Origin: Bacillota bacterium
GTDB taxonomy: Bacteria; Bacillota; Clostridia; Christensenellales; CAG-917
DNA length: 64,000 nt
Reading direction: 5' to 3'
Assembly (NCBI GenBank): GCA_023665365.1
Contig: JAMPEA010000006.1
Location: forward strand, 1 to 64,000
Every line of letters begins with the position of its first letter. The stretch's first letter is position 1. Position numbers and translations under genes: made by a program. Below the pieces are notes generated by a model. The model was not told the DNA's origin, made no database searches, and worked only from the letters and a program-made list of their open reading frames with translations. This document shows, piece after piece, positions 1,331 through 12,171 of this stretch.

Positions 1331-4300
1331 GTTTTCATTCCTTATTAGACTACATTGCTCTCAAACTCCCCGAAGTTGGGGGATTTATTACGTCTTGTTT
1401 TCATTCCTTATTAGACTACATTGCTCTCAAACATATCCTGCGTTATAACCTGTGTTATAACCGTTTTCATTCCTTATTAGACTACATTGCTCTCAAACAA
1501 GACAAGCGAGGGCAACAAGCGGCTATCTGTTTTCATTCCTTATTAGACTACATTGCTCTCAAACAACTCAAACGGATTTACAAATCGCGCCGATGTTTTC
1601 ATTCCTTATTAGACTACATTGCTCTCAAACATATGCGGTTGTGTTTGAATATTAACACGTGTTTTCATTCCTTATTAGACTACATTGCTCTCAAACTCAT
1701 GTGCGCAAAGGTTAGGGAAGAACGTTGTTTTCATTCCTTATTAAACTACATTGCTCTCAAACAGGTGATTTATTTTCCTCATCATCTTCTTTGTTTTCAT
1801 TCCTTATTAAACTACATTGCTCTCAAACAAGTAGCAAGTCACGCAATGCCTATACCGAGTTTTCATTCCTTATTAAACTACATTGCTCTCAAACACGGAT
1901 TTGACGTTATTCACTGTGTATTTGGTTTTCATTCCTTATTAAACTACATTGCTCTCAAACGCCAGGAGGATTGATGATGAAAAATATCGAGTTTTCATTC
2001 CTTATTAAACTACATTGCTCTCAAACTATCGTAATACGATATTTGACGATTGGTTGGTTTTCATTCCTTATTAAACTACATTGCTCTCAAACCGTGAAGA
2101 AGAACAAACGCAATATCGGGGTGTTTTCATTCCTTATTAAACTACATTGCTCTCAAACATATCGTCTACGAAAATCATTTAACATACGGTTTTCATTCCT
2201 TATTAAACTACATTGCTCTCAAACATAAAAGGGGGCTAATATGTATAAAAAAACGTTTTCATTCCTTATTAAACTACATTGCTCTCAAACATAGACGTCC
2301 CTTGTGGCAAGTGTACTGAGGTTTTCATTCCTTATTAAACTACATTGCTCTCAAACTTAGTGTCCTCGTTGTATACATACTTATCTGTTTTCATTCCTTA
2401 TTAAACTACATTGCTCTCAAACCAATGTTACACGGCAACGACACAAATCATAGTTTTCATTCCTTATTAAACTACATTGCTCTCAAACGCTCTTGATTAC
2501 ATATACATATTACCACTTGTTTTCATTCCTTATTAAACTACATTGCTCTCAAACAATAATTCTTCTTCTGTTAAATCTGTTCTTGTTTTCATTCCTTATT
2601 AAACTACATTGCTCTCAAACCAAAGCGGAACAATATGACGCGGTTTCCTTGTTTTCATTCCTTATTAAACTACATTGCTCTCAAACATATCGTCTGCGAA
2701 AATCATTTAACATACGGTTTTCATTCCTTATTAAACTACATTGCTCTCAAACTATTTCTCGCGTCCTCTCCAAAAAATCCTTGTTTTCATTCCTTATTAA
2801 ACTACATTGCTCTCAAACGTGCCGGGCATAAGTAAAGACAAAAATTTTGTTTTCATTCCTTATTAAACTACATTGCTCTCAAACAACAGATTTTAACGAG
2901 AAAAAACAACCAGTGTTTTCATTCCTTATTAAACTACATTGCTCTCAAACATCGCGGGCGGGTTCTCTTTGGGTACCGATGTTTTCATTCCTTATTAAAC
3001 TACATTGCTCTCAAACGCAATATCTCGAATTCTCGATACATTTTTAGTTTTCATTCCTTATTAAACTACATTGCTCTCAAACGACAGATTTTAACGAAAA
3101 AAAACAACCAATGTTTTCATTCCTTATTAAACTACATTGCTCTCAAACATCTCTGCGGCAAATACAAGGTTAACGCAAGTTTTCATTCCTTATTAAACTA
3201 CATTGCTCTCAAACAACAGATTTTAACGAAAAACAACCAATCGTGTTTTCATTCCTTATTAAACTACATTGCTCTCAAACTTAAACCTATCCGACAAAGT
3301 AAAAGTATCCGTTTTCATTCCTTATTAAACTACATTGCTCTCAAACGTGGATGAACTGAGAATTAAGGGTGGGAGCGTTTTCATTCCTTATTAAACTACA
3401 TTGCTCTCAAACTTTCCTAATAACCTTTGGGCTATCCAACCTGTTTTCATTCCTTATTAAACTACATTGCTCTCAAACAATGGTTATGCGGTATTTAACG
3501 ATTGGTTCGTTTTCATTCCTTATTAAACTACATTGCTCTCAAACTGCAAAACAATAGGTTATCTATGATTTGCGGTTTTCATTCCTTATTAAACTACATT
3601 GCTCTCAAACCATTATGCAAATCCTCAGAAAAAATTTTTGGTTTTCATTCCTTATTAAACTACATTGCTCTCAAACTACTAATGCGGTAGGATATAGCAA
3701 GGCGGGGTTTTCATTCCTTATTAAACTACATTGCTCTCAAACTGGTTCGTGCATTATTAGTGAATTAACTGTGTTTTCATTCCTTATTAAACTACATTGC
3801 TCTCAAACGTGCGTTCTGCTTGCTAATTCCGTTTGCGTGTTTTCATTCCTTATTAAACTACATTGCTCTCAAACTGTGAAACAACAGGTTATCTATGATT
3901 TGCGGTTTTCATTCCTTATTAAACTACATTGCTCTCAAACTATCGTGATATGATATCTGACGACTGATTGGTTTTCATTCCTTATTAAACTACATTGCTC
4001 TCAAACTATGACCTATTAAATAATTTTTATCATCGTGTTTTCATTCCTTATTAAACTACATTGCTCTCAAACTAAACTTTTTACAGTTGCGTCAAGTGCG
4101 TCGTTTTCATTCCTTATTAAACTACATTGCTCTCAAACGGTTTTTCATACGACTTTTTCGTATGACTAGTTTTCATTCCTTATTAAACTACATTGCTCTC
4201 AAACGGACGGAACGTTTTTAATGCCATATAGCGAGTTTTCATTCCTTATTAAACTACATTGCTCTCAAACATACCTATTGATTATCAGGTAGTATTTGCA

Positions 4301-4534
4301 GTTTTCATTCCTTATTAAACTACATTGCTCTCAAACACACGTTGACAACGCAAATCATAGATAACCGTTTTCATTCCTTATTAAACTACATTGCTCTCAA
4401 ACACGTGGAACACGAATTAACTTCGGCGTTTAGTTTTCATTCCTTATTAAACTACATTGCTCTCAAACAAACGCTTGTGCAAAACACAAGCTACGAAGGT
4501 TTTCATTCCTTATTAAACTACATTGCTCTCAAAC
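1331..4534 (-). CRISPR. Type II-A CRISPR array, 49 repeats and 48 spacers
   Basis: A 36-bp repeat recurs with an exact 66-bp period. Forty-nine repeats and forty-eight 30-nt spacers account for the 3204 bp exactly. Read on the minus strand the repeat begins GTTTGAGAGCAATGTAG and ends GGAATGAAAAC, the usual start and end of type II-A repeats. Transcription is on the minus strand, away from the cas genes and the leader. The six repeats furthest from the leader (starting at 1331, 1397, 1463, 1529, 1595 and 1661) carry ATTAGAC in plus-strand reading, whereas the other 43 carry ATTAAAC. Several spacers form families of near-identical sequence (see findings). Open frames across this region are translations of the repeat and not genes. 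Confidence 0.99.
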
Positions 4535-4684
4535 CTCAAATTATTTGAGAAAACGCCATTACTCGTCATGCGTTTAACAAGGAATTTAGATAATTATAAA
4601 TCACAATTAAACAGATTGCAACGATTATCTTTTATATCTTGATTTAATATACCATAACACGCGAATGGCATGATATTAAAGCAG
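4535..4684 (-). promoter_or_regulatory. CRISPR leader with pre-crRNA promoter
   Basis: These 150 AT-rich bases separate the csn2 stop codon from the first leader-proximal repeat. On the minus strand they contain TTGCAA (4616-4621), a 17-bp spacer and a perfect TATAAT (4593-4598). That places the transcription start near 4586, about 50 nt before the first repeat. The last bases before the repeat (CAAATAATTTGAG, minus strand) are the expected site for integration of new spacers. Confidence 0.85.
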
Positions 4685-5353
4685 TCAAAGTTCACACAAA
4701 TCTTCGTCAATGGTTTTACGTTTTTCACAAGCCAGATTTTTATGATTAGCGCACTCTATCGAAAGCAAGTTGATTTTACGATAAACCAGACTATTATAGA
4801 AACTTTCGGCGTCCTCATCGGATAAGCAAGCTCTTAAATTTATAGTTATAAACAATCGTTTTTTTGCGTATTTTTGGCATATTTCCATATATGAAATCAA
4901 TCGTTCAGCAAACGAAAGCTGTTCAATATCTGGACGCAGATGATACGCTTTTAGCAATAAAGTTATATCGTTGATTTCGTCAAAAGTTAATTCGCTCGCG
5001 GATTCGAAACATATGTCGGACAGCACTTGATTTATATGCTTATACATATCCGCAAGTTCCGAAGAAAACCTATTCGCCGCACATTCGGCAGCTTCCTTTA
5101 TTATTGCATTTATAACTGTTTTATTTGAGCATATATCGACGTCGAATAAATTACCGATAATCTCGGAATTTTTATCGAATTCGATGATTTTATTCTCATC
5201 CGACAGCACGAATTCGCCCTCTCCGATTTGCGATTGTTCAAATAACTCGGCAACAATCTCGCGATAGAATTTAGGGTTTTCTATCACCAACGAGCACACG
5301 TTATGCCCTGTCCATTCAAAGGGAGTATCAAAATTATAATGCGCGAGTTTCAT
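4685..5353 (-). CDS. csn2: CRISPR-associated protein Csn2
   Basis: This 222-residue protein matches Csn2 of type II-A systems in length and in its conserved C-terminal half: LTFDEINDITLLLKAY followed by KRLFITINLRACLSDED, compare the KKLLIFVN...FLT segment of the Streptococcus protein. Csn2 forms a calcium-bound tetrameric ring that slides on linear double-stranded DNA ends and takes part with Cas1, Cas2 and Cas9 in spacer acquisition. Its ATG overlaps the cas2 stop codon (ATGA), so the two are translationally coupled. It is the last cas gene before the leader, the standard II-A position, and its presence fixes the subtype as II-A and not II-C. Confidence 0.93.
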   Translation of the reverse strand: MKLAHYNFDTPFEWTGHNVCSLVIENPKFYREIVAELFEQSQIGEGEFVLSDENKIIEFDKNSEIIGNLFDVDICSNKTVINAIIKEAAECAANRFSSELADMYKHINQVLSDICFESASELTFDEINDITLLLKAYHLRPDIEQLSFAERLISYMEICQKYAKKRLFITINLRACLSDEDAESFYNSLVYRKINLLSIECANHKNLACEKRKTIDEDLCEL

Positions 5354-5670
5354 AGGACCACCAGTCTGCTATCGGAGTTTAAAATGTCGCCGTCATATTG
5401 CCCTACGATAAACTCCATTCGAGCGAATTGTTTTTCTGTAACCGTCAAAACTTGTACTAATCCCTTGACAGGTTTATTTTTGCGAATAGCCGCTATCGTA
5501 CTTCCTACCGCAGTCGCATTTAAAGACAGGTGACAATAAACAGATTTTTGCATCATAGCAAACCCGTTCTTGATTAAGAACTTATGGAATTTCGTATACT
5601 CTCGAACTTCCGAGCTTGTCTCGGTAGGCAAATCGAAAAATAGTATTGTACGCATAAATCTATAACTCAT
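5350..5670 (-). CDS. cas2: CRISPR-associated endoribonuclease-fold protein Cas2
   Basis: The product has 106 residues with the ferredoxin-like Cas2 start MRTILFFDLPTET and the conserved ending LTVTEKQFARM. The first ATG is kept because MSYRFMR before the core is the same N-terminus seen in streptococcal type II-A Cas2. This start overlaps the end of cas1 by 11 nt. Cas2 bridges two Cas1 dimers in the integration complex that inserts new spacers at the leader end. No Shine-Dalgarno sequence precedes it, so translation is probably coupled to cas1. Confidence 0.95.
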   Translation of the reverse strand: MSYRFMRTILFFDLPTETSSEVREYTKFHKFLIKNGFAMMQKSVYCHLSLNATAVGSTIAAIRKNKPVKGLVQVLTVTEKQFARMEFIVGQYDGDILNSDSRLVVL

Positions 5671-6535
5671 ATTTAGGAAAAGTCAACTTGGACACATCGT
5701 TTTCAGCCAATGCCTCAAAAACACTGTGAATAAAAATACTTATTGCATTTATAAGATGATGCTCCTTATCTTTTATTTTTACCGTGCTATTTAAAACGTC
5801 CACCAGTTTCATTTTTTCTTCGTGCTCAAACTTTACTCCGTTAAGCGTCAAAACTTCCCTATCTACAAAGGGTCTGAACGGCTCTATCAAATCCGAGGAC
5901 AGGTTGAAATGATTGAACACGTTATCGTGGAAAATACCGAGTTGCGTCACGTAACCGCAAGCGACCACCTCGCGGTTAATCGCCGACAACAAAATCCCGT
6001 AACCATAATTTAATGCCGTATTGATAAGGTTATCTTCGGAGCGAGAAAAATCCAAGCCGAATAGCGCATTAAAATATACCTTAGCGGCATGCGCCTCTCT
6101 ATTCGTACTGTCATGCGGTTGTACTTCCTGCGCGTATGAATGTAACAACTCTATTTCTCTATCGTTACTCTCCTTTAAATTTGACATTTGCCCAAGAATT
6201 TTAGCTCGTACGATTTCCGCCCAAACAATTCCTTTTATATCGCTTTGCCACCTTATCTGTTCACGCAACTTCCGCGACGTATCGTGAGCGCCGTATAGAC
6301 TGCAAAGCTCGGCTGTCGGATTGTATTTCTCGTCGCAGAAAATAACTTTGATTTTCTTTCGCGAGAGTTCGGCAATCAGATATGCAGTCAGCGCAACGGC
6401 AGTAGTTTCTATTATAAGCACGGCTATCTCATCTAAATGAACTCTGGTGGTCTTTTCATCGGTGCGGACCACCATATAGTTCATCTTATAATCGAGCTTG
6501 GCTCTGCTGCTAATCACAACGATGCGAAAACCCAT
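5660..6535 (-). CDS. cas1: CRISPR-associated integrase Cas1 (type II)
   Basis: The 291-residue protein has the Cas1 layout: an N-terminal beta domain to about residue 75 and an alpha-helical catalytic domain. The metal-binding residues can be placed as Glu147 (NREAHAAKVYF), His203 (LGIFHDNVFNHF) and Glu218 (SDLIEPFRP), each two positions before the E149/H205/E220 set as I recall it for the streptococcal protein. Together with Cas2 it catalyses integration of protospacers next to the leader. It begins six bases after the cas9 stop codon and overlaps cas2. All catalytic residues are present, which fits an adaptation module still in use. Confidence 0.97.
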   Translation of the reverse strand: MGFRIVVISSRAKLDYKMNYMVVRTDEKTTRVHLDEIAVLIIETTAVALTAYLIAELSRKKIKVIFCDEKYNPTAELCSLYGAHDTSRKLREQIRWQSDIKGIVWAEIVRAKILGQMSNLKESNDREIELLHSYAQEVQPHDSTNREAHAAKVYFNALFGLDFSRSEDNLINTALNYGYGILLSAINREVVACGYVTQLGIFHDNVFNHFNLSSDLIEPFRPFVDREVLTLNGVKFEHEEKMKLVDVLNSTVKIKDKEHHLINAISIFIHSVFEALAENDVSKLTFPKYEL

Positions 6536-6541
6536 AATGCG

Positions 6542-9500
6542 TCACTCAATAACGATTTTCTTTTCATATAACCCCGTTATGGATTGATAGATAATGCTTA
6601 TTTTGCCACCAAACGTTTTGTTAAGGCGTATCAGCCCTACTTGATCGGTACTGCCACCGAATTCTTTGAGTTTGGCATAAATAGCTTTGCACTCAAACGC
6701 CTTAATCACTTCACTCAACATTTTACACTGCTCCGCTATACTAATCGAAACGAACCTTTCTCGGCAATTTATTAAATTCGTGTACACTTTGCCAAACGCT
6801 TTCGCATATACATTTGACTTGCACTTTTGTATAAATAAGTCGTAAAGATTTATATTATCCTCGGAATTTACGTCGGACAACTCATATTCGCTTATTTCCT
6901 TTTTACGTTCTCTGTATATTTCTGCAATTTTCAAAACTTTACGCAAATACTTAGTCGTTTCGTAATTGAAAAGCAACTGATTGGCGATTACAAATATAAT
7001 TTGATTGCCCGTTCTTCCCGATATAAGCAGCCGTGCGCCGTCGATTTCAAACAGAGTTTTATAGAGTATCTTATTTACTCTTATCTTTGCGATCTCACCA
7101 TCTTTTGCCCAATATGTTTGAGCGTACGCAAGCGGGTCCTTTTCATACTCTGTCTTTTGATAAATCAGTACGGCTTCGATAGCAATACGCTTTTCCACAC
7201 CGCGCTTCGTTTGCTTTTGGTATTCGACAATCGCCCAATATGCGCCCTTTGCACTATTATAGCCGCCATAAATTGCTGTTTTCCTATCTTTTTTCAACGG
7301 AATCAGTTCGTCGTCTTTTTTGACAGGATTGAGATTGAATAACTGTCCCTTTTCTTCAAGCGGCATTTGAGTATATAAAACGCTGTTTTTAGACATAGTT
7401 TTACGCACGACGTTTATAGTTTCGTCGTCTTTGGCGTTCCAAGCGCCTCTGACGTAGTATTTATACAGCGCTTCGGGTTTTAGCGAATATTCTTTGTCTT
7501 TGAGATGGCGCATAAAATCCGACGTGAACCGCGTATCGAAATAATTGCCGACAACGATATTGAGATACGCGTCATGAGCGTGATGGAAATCATTTATGTC
7601 TCTGCACTTCAACATATCGAAATGTTGTCTGAATTCGCTTACGTTTGCGGCTTTGGAATATACTATCTTACTCCCGTTGCCGCTTTCTCCATATATGGTA
7701 TTGAGAATTTCGGCAACCGCTTTTGTGGATTGCCCCGTTTCCACCAGCTGACGGTTGATAAATGCGGACAACTCGTCATCTGTGAGTTCAGACGACCTTG
7801 TAAGGCGTTCAAACTTGGTTTTAGATATGCAACCCGCATTCAGTAAAAATTTCCAATACGAGTACATATTGTTTCTAATACCGTCGCCGATAGGATATGT
7901 ATTGGACTTCTCACGATTGAGTTCCGCCTTGACCAATACGAGATTATCCAAACTATCGTCCTTTATTTTGGAACGCGGATAAATGTGATCCAAATCCCAA
8001 CGGTTTTGGTCGTATAATTCGTTCAAGTCTATACTTTCGCCCGAATACATACACTTTCCGAATTGGCGATAGTATAAATACAGTTTTTTAGCGCGCAATT
8101 TATCATCGCTCATACTATCGACCGATGCTTGCAGTTTTTTGAATTCGTCCCCGTCGATAAATTTCAGAAGTTCTTTGCTTTGCTTCTTGCAATTTTGATA
8201 CAAATCCAATAATTGCTGTTTGCGAGAAGTTGTGCGTTTATTCTTTTTACTTGGGTCGTTTTCTCGCGGAACTTCAACAAAAATTTTACGAGGTTTACTC
8301 TTCATCACGTCAACTATCTCGTCAACAATACGCAATGCCTGCCATATAGAACGTCTTATTTTGGGCGAAACGTATAGCTCGTCAATCATTTTTAACGGAT
8401 TTGAAGCTACGCCCGATTTTTTTAGCTTGTATTCGCGCGCCTTCTTGGCATACTCATAGTTGCCACTAAGCAACTGCATGAGATTGACGTTATGGTTGCG
8501 CATCATATCAATAATAGATACGAGTTCGCCCGTGCCGTCAATTCTGTCAACGTCATAGATTTCGGTCAAAAATCTTTTTGAAAGATTTCCCCAATTTTTG
8601 AATTTAAGTGACAGCACGTATTTAACGTCGTCCTCGCAAAGTTGCGGAACGTTCTCTTTTAGCCATGACCTTAAAATATTTTTCGCGTCGCCGAAAAGCA
8701 CGACGTGCTCTATTATTGCCTCGACTGTCGCGGGCGATGTCTTTGCAAGTATGCGCTTCATCTTATGATATGACGATAGCGTGGCATTGAGGGTTTCATC
8801 AGTTCCGCTTATCTCGTCGCCTTTTTGCGCATATCCCTCTGAGATAAGCAAATCTTTAATATCTTTCAATCTAACCTTTCTATTCTTCTCAATGTACAGT
8901 CTTTGATATATAAGTTTTTTCGCGTCCACGTCAATAGGGTTGCCGTTGAGTTTCAGATTGTTTATTTCATTGAGCACGGCAAATTCGCTATACAACAGCG
9001 AATCTCTCGCGATCACGTTGTCGCCAGTATAAGTACAAAGCGACTTCATTCTTTCTATAAACTTTCTCGACGATTCTCGCTCGTCTATAATTGACGACCA
9101 ATTCCACGGATATATCTTTTCATCTTCCATTCCTTTGTTGCGCACAGCCCAACCATACTGCGAATTTTTGCCGATAGGACCGACGTAATAAGGCAATTTG
9201 TAATCGAATATCGAAATGATTTTATTGACTACGCTAAGTCCGTTCTCATCTTTATCGTTTAAAAACGGCAAATAAGAGGAGGCGTTTTCGAGTATCTTTA
9301 TAAGCTCCTTTTTGTGCATAGAGTTTGGAATACAACCGTTTTCGCTCGTGCGCAACTTAGGCGCAAACGTCCCGTCCTCTATGTGTTGCCACATAACAAA
9401 ATATTTTTCGTCCGCACCCTCTTTGATTTTGCCGAGCTTCTCCTTCAAAAACGCACAAAATTCTTCGCTTGTCGTTTTTCCTGTCTTTTCGTCTCCCTTT

Positions 9501-10654
9501 TTATAGCGGGAATATGCGGCATAATTTTTCAAGCCGACCTCTTTTTCCTTGCCGTTCTTGTCTGCTACTTTGACAGCCTTGTATACGAATATCTCTTTGT
9601 ACAACTCTGCGTCGCATAAAACGTTTCTTACGTATTCTTTCAACAGCCTTATATCGTCAGCGTGTTGCTTATATTGCGAAACCTTATATTCGCATAAATA
9701 GTCATTTCCCTTTAATATCCTTTCGCAAACTGCTTTGTCATAGACCGCCTTACCTTTCAAAAGCACTTCGCTTATATCTTCATATTTGTCTAAGCACTCC
9801 TGAATTTTATCCTCTGCGTCAGTTACACAAAAGCTATCCTTTTCACACTCGCCGAATACGTATATATCTTTGATATTTACGGTCATTCCGACTATCAGCT
9901 TTATAAGTGCAGTTATCAAATTCTTTTGAACTGTCTTGTCCAATTCGCTCTCGCCGTTCGACTTAAAAAGAGATTTCAACCTTTCGGACTTTTCCTTTTT
10001 GCCGAGTTTATCATCGCACAGAATTTCTTTTACGCTATCTATATCTGATATTTCAATAGCCAAACCCAAATCGGATTCTACCGTTTCTTTAAATTGCGTC
10101 AACACCTGTTCAAACGTCTGCTCTTCTCCGTCATCGTCAAGCGAGTACAAAAAATGTCCTCTGCTTTTGATGATATGATACAACGCAAGATACACAAGAC
10201 GAATGTCATGCGGGCTTGGATTATGTATGAGTTCTTTTCGCAAATGATAAGCGGTTTTAGTGATTTCGTCCGTGAAATAATTTTTATCCGTATAATTGCT
10301 GTCCGCAAAAAGGATAAACTTTGTATCCATATTCTTGTCAGAACCTATCAACGCGCTGTTTTTCATACGCATAAAAAAGTTCTTATCTATTTTACATATT
10401 TCCTCGTCGAAAAGTTCGCGCAAAAGTTGCAATCTCCACTTTTGCCTTGCCAAACGCCGCCTATTAGTCCTGTTTAATCTTCGAGCTTGCTTCGTCTCTG
10501 CCTCGTCAAACAGACGTACGCCCCACATATCCTTACCCTTAGCTCGTAAAAGATTGTAGTTCATGTCGCTTACTGCCCATCCCACAGATTCCGTGCCCAA
10601 GTCCAGCCCGATATAATAATCCGACATTACGTTATTGTTTCCGTTCTTTTTCAT
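6542..10654 (-). CDS. cas9: Cas9 RNA-guided DNA endonuclease, type II-A
   Basis: This is a full-length 1370-residue Cas9. RuvC-I is YYIGLDLGTESVGWAV with Asp18, the arginine-rich bridge helix lies at about residues 57-80, RuvC-II is KIFVEVPREN with Glu794, HNH is WDLDHIYPRSK with His890, and RuvC-III is HHAHDAYLN with Asp1028. These correspond to D10, E762, H840 and D986 of the S. pyogenes enzyme, so both nuclease sites are intact. The C-terminal 340 residues should hold the PAM-reading domain; its specificity cannot be read from the sequence. I start at the ATG preceded by AGAGGTCAAATT, a good Shine-Dalgarno sequence at proper spacing. An upstream in-frame ATG would add 22 residues with no homology and overlap the tracrRNA promoter. 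It is the first gene of the cas9-cas1-cas2-csn2 operon. Confidence 0.97.
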   Translation of the reverse strand: MKKNGNNNVMSDYYIGLDLGTESVGWAVSDMNYNLLRAKGKDMWGVRLFDEAETKQARRLNRTNRRRLARQKWRLQLLRELFDEEICKIDKNFFMRMKNSALIGSDKNMDTKFILFADSNYTDKNYFTDEITKTAYHLRKELIHNPSPHDIRLVYLALYHIIKSRGHFLYSLDDDGEEQTFEQVLTQFKETVESDLGLAIEISDIDSVKEILCDDKLGKKEKSERLKSLFKSNGESELDKTVQKNLITALIKLIVGMTVNIKDIYVFGECEKDSFCVTDAEDKIQECLDKYEDISEVLLKGKAVYDKAVCERILKGNDYLCEYKVSQYKQHADDIRLLKEYVRNVLCDAELYKEIFVYKAVKVADKNGKEKEVGLKNYAAYSRYKKGDEKTGKTTSEEFCAFLKEKLGKIKEGADEKYFVMWQHIEDGTFAPKLRTSENGCIPNSMHKKELIKILENASSYLPFLNDKDENGLSVVNKIISIFDYKLPYYVGPIGKNSQYGWAVRNKGMEDEKIYPWNWSSIIDERESSRKFIERMKSLCTYTGDNVIARDSLLYSEFAVLNEINNLKLNGNPIDVDAKKLIYQRLYIEKNRKVRLKDIKDLLISEGYAQKGDEISGTDETLNATLSSYHKMKRILAKTSPATVEAIIEHVVLFGDAKNILRSWLKENVPQLCEDDVKYVLSLKFKNWGNLSKRFLTEIYDVDRIDGTGELVSIIDMMRNHNVNLMQLLSGNYEYAKKAREYKLKKSGVASNPLKMIDELYVSPKIRRSIWQALRIVDEIVDVMKSKPRKIFVEVPRENDPSKKNKRTTSRKQQLLDLYQNCKKQSKELLKFIDGDEFKKLQASVDSMSDDKLRAKKLYLYYRQFGKCMYSGESIDLNELYDQNRWDLDHIYPRSKIKDDSLDNLVLVKAELNREKSNTYPIGDGIRNNMYSYWKFLLNAGCISKTKFERLTRSSELTDDELSAFINRQLVETGQSTKAVAEILNTIYGESGNGSKIVYSKAANVSEFRQHFDMLKCRDINDFHHAHDAYLNIVVGNYFDTRFTSDFMRHLKDKEYSLKPEALYKYYVRGAWNAKDDETINVVRKTMSKNSVLYTQMPLEEKGQLFNLNPVKKDDELIPLKKDRKTAIYGGYNSAKGAYWAIVEYQKQTKRGVEKRIAIEAVLIYQKTEYEKDPLAYAQTYWAKDGEIAKIRVNKILYKTLFEIDGARLLISGRTGNQIIFVIANQLLFNYETTKYLRKVLKIAEIYRERKKEISEYELSDVNSEDNINLYDLFIQKCKSNVYAKAFGKVYTNLINCRERFVSISIAEQCKMLSEVIKAFECKAIYAKLKEFGGSTDQVGLIRLNKTFGGKISIIYQSITGLYEKKIVIE

Positions 10655-10703
10655 AATTTGACCTCTGCCTTTTGTATTTTGTTTTTCTATTGAAAAATTT
10701 TTG

Positions 10704-10732
10704 TTGACATATTTTCGCAAATGTGTTTCAAT
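10704..10732 (+). promoter_or_regulatory. Probable tracrRNA promoter
   Basis: TTGACA (10704-10709) is followed after 17 bp by TTCAAT (10727-10732), a perfect -35 box with a four-of-six -10 box. Transcription would start near 10739, just before the anti-repeat. The promoter lies in the cas9 upstream region and faces away from cas9. Confidence 0.6.
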
Positions 10733-10738
10733 ATACTC

Positions 10739-10852
10739 ATCTCAGTTCCTTATGAGACTACATTACAAGTTCAAATAAGCATTATGCGAACTCGTCGTTT
10801 AACGAACCACATTGTGTGGATTATCCGCTGATAACTCGGCGGATATTTTATA
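10739..10852 (+). ncRNA. tracrRNA for the type II-A Cas9
   Basis: Bases 10746-10776 form an anti-repeat to the minus-strand CRISPR repeat. Nine of ten upper-stem bases pair (ACUACAUUAC in the tracrRNA), then comes an AAGU bulge facing GA in the crRNA, then a lower stem of UCAAAU with GUUUGA. This bulge layout is the same as in S. pyogenes. Downstream are four small hairpins: GCAUUAUGC at 10779-10787 in the nexus position, UCGUU/AACGA at 10795-10805, CCACA/UGUGG at 10807-10819, and a terminator AUCCGC/GCGGAU at 10823-10844 followed by AUUUUAU. Location upstream of cas9 on the opposite strand is usual for type II-A. The exact 5' end is inferred from the promoter. Confidence 0.88.
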
Positions 10853-10854
10853 TT

Positions 10855-11212
10855 ATTTAAATATTATCATATATGGCGTACCGTTTTCGGTACATCATTT
10901 GTGATATATGGAGGCACCTAAATCAGCATCTAAACGTCTCTATAAATATAGTACATTTAATTCTAAATTAGTCAATGCCAAATTGAAAACTTTTCACAGT
11001 TTTTCCATAAAATATAACTCAATCGAGAAATCAAATTATTATCTTCGCTTATCATTATAATAAAACTGCTTGACACAAAACAAGTTAAACACAAACTGCA
11101 CTTTTTATTATTTGAAATGAAAGAGAAACTCGGCGCACTCAAAAGCATGTACGAGTGCGATAATCCGCTAAAACTCGCAATTTAGACGCGATACGCAAAA
11201 ACTAAAAAGTAG
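10855..11212. other. Intergenic AT-rich stretch with no supported gene
   Basis: This DNA between the tracrRNA terminator and the first palindromic element holds no convincing gene. A plus-strand frame of 22 codons (11117-11185, ending YECDNPLKLAI) has protein-like composition and ends within an element half-copy (AAACTCGCAATTTAG). It has no Shine-Dalgarno sequence and may be the 3' relic of a lost gene. A near-palindrome GTACCGTTTTCGGTAC sits around 10878. Confidence 0.4.
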
Positions 11213-11541: not shown

Positions 11542-12171
11542 TCAAGAGTTTTGGAGCATGGATTTGACTTTCATCAGGCGCGTAGTAGCCCCGCGCTCGT
11601 TCTCGTCCAATTTCATCGTGATATACTTTATAGTCTCTTCAAGCTGAGGTATCATGACGTATTCGAGGGCGTTGACGCGACGGCGATTGCGCTCGATTTC
11701 GTCGGCGAGCATATTGCAGGTTTTTTCCACTTCGGCGAGCTTTAAGAGTTTTGGCAGCAGAGTGGACAGCGACGCGACAGCGCTGTCGAGCTCGCTCGTG
11801 ACCGACGCAAAGGAATAGGGATAAAGCTCCTGCGTGCCATTGTTGATGATTTCAAATACGGGGACTTCGACGCTCATCACGTTTTGCGAGGATACGTTGA
11901 GTTCCACCTTAGTGCCGGGCAAGGCAATCGCTTCCTCGATAACCGCGTCTGACGACACTGCGCGCGCAAGCATAAAGGATTTGAGGGATTCTTGAAGTTC
12001 GCCCTCGACCTCCTCTCTGAGGCGCTTGTTTTCGCGCACGTAAAGCATAAATCTGCGAATCATCTCGTCGGATTTATCTTTTAGCAATTTATGTCCGCGA
12101 GTGGCGGTTTTGAGGCGCGTTTTGAGGCGTCTCAACTCCATTCGCGTGGGATTGACGTTGAGTTTTGCCAT
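11542..12171 (-). CDS. ntpD: V-type ATPase subunit D (central rotor shaft)
   Basis: The 209-residue protein begins [20 protein letters not shown], the characteristic start of V/A-ATPase subunit D, and consists of two long coiled-coil helices at its ends. Subunit D forms the axle inside the A3B3 head and transmits rotation to the membrane ring. It is the last gene of the operon and its ATG shares bases with the ntpB stop codon. The extreme C-terminus (QNS) and the TGA stop are encoded inside the arm of the palindromic element, so the native end of the gene may have been replaced when the element arrived. Confidence 0.95.

Follow-up and report, generated by a model that had tools for sequence, protein, structure and literature searches.

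The window (the whole stretch of 64,000 nucleotides that was analysed) opens with a CRISPR array in which a number of spacers resemble one another without being identical. This raises the questions (i) what kind of system the array belongs to; (ii) whether the resemblances exceed chance, and how many target sites lie behind them; and (iii) how diverged versions of one spacer came to stand in the same array.

The locus and its orientation

The array (1331–4534, minus strand) comprises 49 repeats of 36 nt and 48 spacers, all of which are 30 nt long. The 43 younger repeats are identical to each other, which indicates that the array itself hardly mutates, and the six repeats at the trailer, or old, end (1331–1696, minus strand) have an A>G change in common. 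A repeat search of 43 genomes of the family found no close copy of the array repeat. The source is a single assembly of 58 contigs, and the order of the spacers may be partly artefactual.

Adjoining the array on the minus strand are csn2 (4685–5353; TIGR01866, 155 bits against a cut-off of 35, and PF09711), cas2 (5350–5670; TIGR01573), a type II cas1 (5660–6535; TIGR03639, 308.6 bits) and cas9 (6542–10720; TIGR01865, 840 bits), the last with RuvC, bridge helix, REC, HNH and PI domains (domain matches PF13395, PF22702, PF16592 and PF16595); all four exceed the curated cut-offs. As csn2 defines type II-A, its presence together with cas1, cas2 and cas9 makes this a complete and apparently intact type II-A system (Cas9, Cas1, Cas2 and Csn2). 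Several features expected of such a system were found: HNH and RuvC domains in cas9, a type II cas1 in an operon with cas2, csn2, and an array of 36-nt repeats and 30-nt spacers with an ATTTGAG/GTTT leader junction. A probable tracrRNA lies upstream of cas9 on the plus strand (10740–10860), having an anti-repeat (TTCCTTATGAGACTACATTACAAGTTCAAAT), a strong hairpin and a T-rich end; the region folds at -29.9 kcal/mol (z -2.9) and has no match in Rfam.

In the leader (4535–4684, minus strand), the sequence ATTTGAG (4535–4541) directly abuts the first repeat. This is the leader-anchoring motif of group-1 II-A loci (PMC5382924). The junction is kept in a Clostridia MAG of the same genus (L219/L228), which has a conserved leader, a II-A system with the same gene order and a Cas9 that is 67% identical, and which shares no spacers with the array described here. 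The array polarity, as read from the sequence, places the newest spacers at the 4534 end, and the leader motif, the tracrRNA-like anti-repeat and the order of the cas operon together indicate that the minus strand gives the crRNAs. On the model of other II-A systems, each printed spacer would have its PAM at the left edge; a PAM call for this array was abandoned, the protospacers being too few.

Spacer families and their target sites

In an ungapped comparison scored as matches minus mismatches, nine pairs of spacers score at least 16, while in 60 sets of 48 spacers drawn from a first-order Markov model the highest score ranged from 7 to 15 and pairs scoring at least 14 averaged 0.017 per set; a gapped comparison against shuffled spacers agrees. 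The families are real, and the nine pairs lie far beyond chance, as a preliminary description of this DNA had asserted. The differences that it listed between individual members (2027/3941, 2159/2687, 2885/3083, 3545/3875, 3215 and 4337) also proved correct on recount. Its division into at least four families needs revision, since two of them, A and C, represent a single site: 11, perhaps 12, of the 48 spacers appear to trace to three short target sites rather than four.

Spacers are named here by their first position, and all are given on the minus strand. Family A consists of 2027 (2027–2056; the strand encoding QPIVKYRITI), 3479 (3479–3508; EPIVKYRITI) and 3941 (3941–3970; QSVVRYHITI). The last differs from 2027 at five positions, all of them transitions. 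Spacers 2027 and 3479 differ at seven of 30 positions (23%), three of which are transitions and six of which fall at third codon positions (P = 0.007 for a given position). Family C, on the opposite strand of the A site, includes 2885 (2885–2914) and 3083 (3083–3112), which both correspond to TDFNEKKQP and differ by three transitions. Its third member, 3215 (3215–3244), has an in-frame deletion of 3 nt and is still 30 nt long; it keeps the left, PAM-side edge, equals 3083 minus 3 nt with one mismatch in the other 27 nt, and has an extra CGT at its end, which are the bases that family A shows there.

In our reading, the A and C protospacers come from a single coding segment, TDFNEK[K]QPIVKYRITI, where they overlap but lie on opposite strands. 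Spacer 3215 ends with the 11 nt with which the reverse complement of 2027 begins (CAACCAATCGT), an end overlap reached by about 1 in 100 shuffled sets; the maximum for opposite-strand overlaps was 8–11 nt in the top ten of 100 shuffles, compared with the 18 nt (family D, below) and 11 nt observed. When 3215 and the reverse-complemented 2027 are chained, the result (TDFNEKQPIVKYRITI) has one reading frame, and the only minus-strand frame open in all members of A is the same as that of C. The link is further supported by this common frame and by a common A/G (Ile/Val) polymorphism, a site that varies among members of both families. The composite segment for this site is AACAGATTTTAACGAAAAACAACCAATCGTCAAATATCGTATTACGATA.

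Family D covers a second site, also on both strands (composite segment ACACGTTGACAACGCAAATCATAGATAACCTATTGTTTTGCA). Its members 3545 (3545–3574) and 3875 (3875–3904) differ by three transitions, and 4337 (4337–4366), from the other strand, overlaps both at their PAM-distal ends by 18 nt of identical bases. While these three belong together as the preliminary description proposed, its inclusion of 2423 (2423–2452) is suggestive only: 18 of 23 aligned bases are common to 2423 and 4337, giving a score of 13, which 4 of 60 random sets reach. Both cross-strand pairs, in A/C and in D, meet at PAM-distal ends, an observation that covers two cases. The third site is that of family B, whose two members, 2159 (2159–2188) and 2687 (2687–2716), differ by one transition at position 10 from the PAM end. 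The 12 differences within the near pairs are all transitions (P = 0.008 assuming that transitions make up two thirds of changes, 0.07 assuming 80%), which is mildly unusual and fits recent divergence. Counted from the trailer, the members of A occupy array positions 11, 33 and 40, and those of D positions 34, 39 and 46.

Some other spacers deserve mention. Spacer 2555 was rejected as a member of C on account of low complexity. The PAM-distal ends of 2819–2848 and 3611–3640 overlap by 10 nt on opposite strands (CAAAAATTTT), possibly a further shared site, of low complexity and with no single open frame. Among 4139–4168, 4469–4498 and 1433–1462, two contain 7-bp inverted repeats like those of terminator hairpins and one contains a direct repeat (GTTATAACC), which suggests captures from intergenic DNA.

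How the family members were acquired

Relatedness, a common register, codon-level divergence, representation of both strands and a constant length of 30 nt after the loss of a codon can all be read from the spacers. We consider the best explanation, with a probability of about 80%, to be that the members were captured separately, by an ordinary II-A system, from mobile elements that are diverged relatives of one another. Separate capture leads one to expect spacers in a common register whose differences are constrained by the encoded protein, and these are seen in 2027/3479 and in the in-frame deletion of 3215. The third-position divergence, the codon deletion with refilled length and the use of both strands likewise bear out the view put forward earlier that homologous loci of related invaders were sampled repeatedly.

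The system would have taken spacers on separate occasions, measuring a fixed 30 nt from the PAM side at those sites only where a PAM is present. With length fixed and sites limited by the PAM, captures made independently within a conserved coding segment would share a register, and the opposite-strand members would stem from sites that overlap these on that strand. The invaders behind the spacers are probably few and recurrent. Here, as in every conclusion on the mechanism of recurrence, we infer: that related elements invaded on separate occasions, that the target genomes are small, and that recurrence stems from hot sites or from sites limited by the PAM. An even draw from about 140 sites would give the eight same-site pairs observed; two triples with only two doubles are unexpected under such a draw (P ~0.01), which points to uneven sampling in which some sites or invaders were favoured.

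Among the alternatives, primed acquisition fares best, although we regard it as a rather unlikely origin of the families. Under this explanation, Cas9 cuts at a known target provide DNA ends, and later spacers adjoin old protospacers, generating the A/C and D clusters. The earlier remark that priming is not well established for type II-A is out of date, as primed (cleavage-stimulated) acquisition has been reported for S. mutans P42S (PMC8265633) and for II-A loci in S. aureus and S. thermophilus (PMC7105378), with an excess of second spacers from within 500 bp of the first target (PMC7105378, PMC8265633). As in those systems, several spacers here derive from one target region and from both strands, and the members of A/C and of D lie within ~50 nt of each other; moreover, the opposite-strand pairs meet PAM-distally, so that a Cas9 cut ~3 nt from one PAM would leave the neighbouring protospacer intact. 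In contrast to those systems, however, the spacers here are diverged variants, often in the very same register, and same-register re-capture, seen in A, B, C and D, is not a specific prediction of flanking acquisition, in which the cut falls inside that very protospacer. Furthermore, the family members are spread over ~35 array positions. Priming could nevertheless add to ordinary PAM-anchored acquisition. A stronger proposition, that PAM-out opposite-strand pairs and same-site re-capture are the natural footprint of a II-A bias towards known targets, including diverged targets only partly cut by the old spacer, strikes us as unlikely.

We find it similarly improbable that the families reflect renewal after escape, with point-mutant phages evading an older spacer and being sampled again at the same site, a possibility raised in the preliminary description. 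It is true that in each closest pair the 10 PAM-proximal bases include one difference or more, and that family B differs at position 10 only, but the seed is not enriched, containing five of the 12 near-pair differences where four are expected (P = 0.37). Nor do 2027 and 3479, at 23% divergence and mostly at silent sites, look like parent and escape mutant; they look like different lineages, and this pair and the codon deletion in 3215, neither of which renewal by escape can account for, alike speak for lineage divergence rather than a single step. That one element carries several diverged internal copies of the target segment is very unlikely, requiring about five diverged copies for A/C in addition to copies for B and D, while ordinary relatives are the simpler source.

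Finally, spacer-repeat units can be duplicated or deleted by recombination between repeats, but an origin of the families by such copying followed by mutation inside the array can be dismissed with near certainty, since 43 repeats are without a difference beside family spacers that differ at 1–7 of 30 positions (3–23%), the neighbours of family members are not duplicated, members occur on opposite strands, and the differences are not random changes with length kept or lost accordingly but are codon-structured, as only selection in the target could produce, while 3215, which a deletion within the array would have left at 27 nt, contradicts this origin outright by lacking a codon and still measuring 30 nt with new target sequence (CGT) at its end, marking it as a new and separate capture.

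Candidate targets and comparison with other II-A systems

That members of a family hit the same protospacers is an inference from their own sequences; searches of phages, plasmids, IMG/VR and ~740 related whole genomes turned up no protospacer for any family. IMG/VR contained nothing credible for families A, B, C and D or for spacer 2291, with exact as with codon-degenerate patterns; the only match there, 18 nt of D in a gene for a long protein on a 52-kb viral contig (L012), looks like chance. The A pattern, the only one run against GTDB representatives, gave nothing credible either. Two weak matches came from composite queries, which were run on phages, plasmids and 391 genomes of the class: one in an ABC-transporter-like gene (L209), which was rejected, and one with E = 0.005 (L208); tblastn with one 16-residue composite padded to 20 gave no match. 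Two further candidates were dropped. One, resembling family B (L048 in G363, 25/30), falls at the margin of a tRNA-synthetase-like gene; the other, a peptide match in L196 that resembles family A, coincides with a small ORF read in another frame. A small ORF at L196 5152–5232 (MSLYEILSLMIGVTQLIVTVFANRHK), near an L066-type element (see below), resembles holin-like small toxins.

When all spacers were compared with phages, plasmids and 396 genomes of the order, only two, neither of them a family member, gave in-frame, motif-level matches. Spacer 2291 (2291–2320, minus strand) matches the replication-initiator (Rep) gene of a microvirus from rodent faeces (L013, PQ006806.1, 3711–3740) at 25 of 30 positions, in frame and at a VPCGKC motif that is present in other microviruses too. 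As the match alone has E = 9, we credit this target on the reading frame and the known motif, and it hints that a related microvirus infects the host group. Spacer 2621 (2621–2650, minus strand) matches a small integrated element at 27 of 30 positions, in frame and at a conserved VxLFRF motif; the match (GNRV[I/F]LFRF), on a 6.3-kb contig, is in a protein encoded beside a membrane P-loop ATPase, and most of 28 homologues from related genomes have LFRF at the end of this motif. These two cases show that conserved protein motifs of small mobile genomes are among the sequences that the array samples, and this makes it plausible that a site already used should be captured again.

The element L066 (G226:C98, 1–6320) is a widespread small integrated element with a membrane P-loop ATPase of ~740 aa. 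Of 396 genomes of the order, 57 encode homologues of this ATPase, the host's among them (L097 6859–9075, G000:C22), and no relative was found in IMG/VR. The protein has no convincing match in Pfam, PHROGs or NCBIfam; its AlphaFold2 model (pLDDT 83) has weak Foldseek similarity to inovirus Zot domains, and the element is possibly an undescribed filamentous-phage-like or conjugative element. A screen of ~70 loci with an ATPase of this type gave no family match. None of the 48 spacers matches the host's own copy within seven mismatches, and no clear self-target was seen in the host genome.

With respect to II-A adaptation in systems with the ATTTGAG leader (group 1), the gene set, the 36/30-nt array, the leader motif and the polarity are the same, and no tested feature differs, in a host clade that has been little studied. 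Many spacers against few related targets are also a feature of chronic phage infection in S. thermophilus, where multiple spacers against one viral group are described in work cited in PMC9419375; compared with what that citation conveys, recurrence here is to three sites of ~30–50 nt and with visible codon-level divergence. In three II-A arrays from the same family (G026, G027 and G007, the last being the L219 genome), from which 63, 17 and 9 spacers were read, there is one overlapping diverged pair among 89 spacers (L231, G026:C2, spacers at 11840 and 12828; score 14, 18 of 20 bases), compared with nine strong pairs, and 11–12 of 48 spacers in families, here. Same-site capture of diverged targets thus occurs elsewhere, and the present array is rich in it.

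We therefore regard the array as ordinary II-A biology, unusually well recorded, in a host with repeated encounters with related invaders. Three internal tests (codon structure, opposite-strand overlap and constant length after an indel) separate re-capture from mutation within an array, and they need no phage genome. Since the array records, in temporal order, several variants of one target segment, it could date the repeated exposure of the host lineage to related invaders. Once its targets have been identified, it could also be used to measure whether II-A acquisition in nature prefers targets already known to the system.
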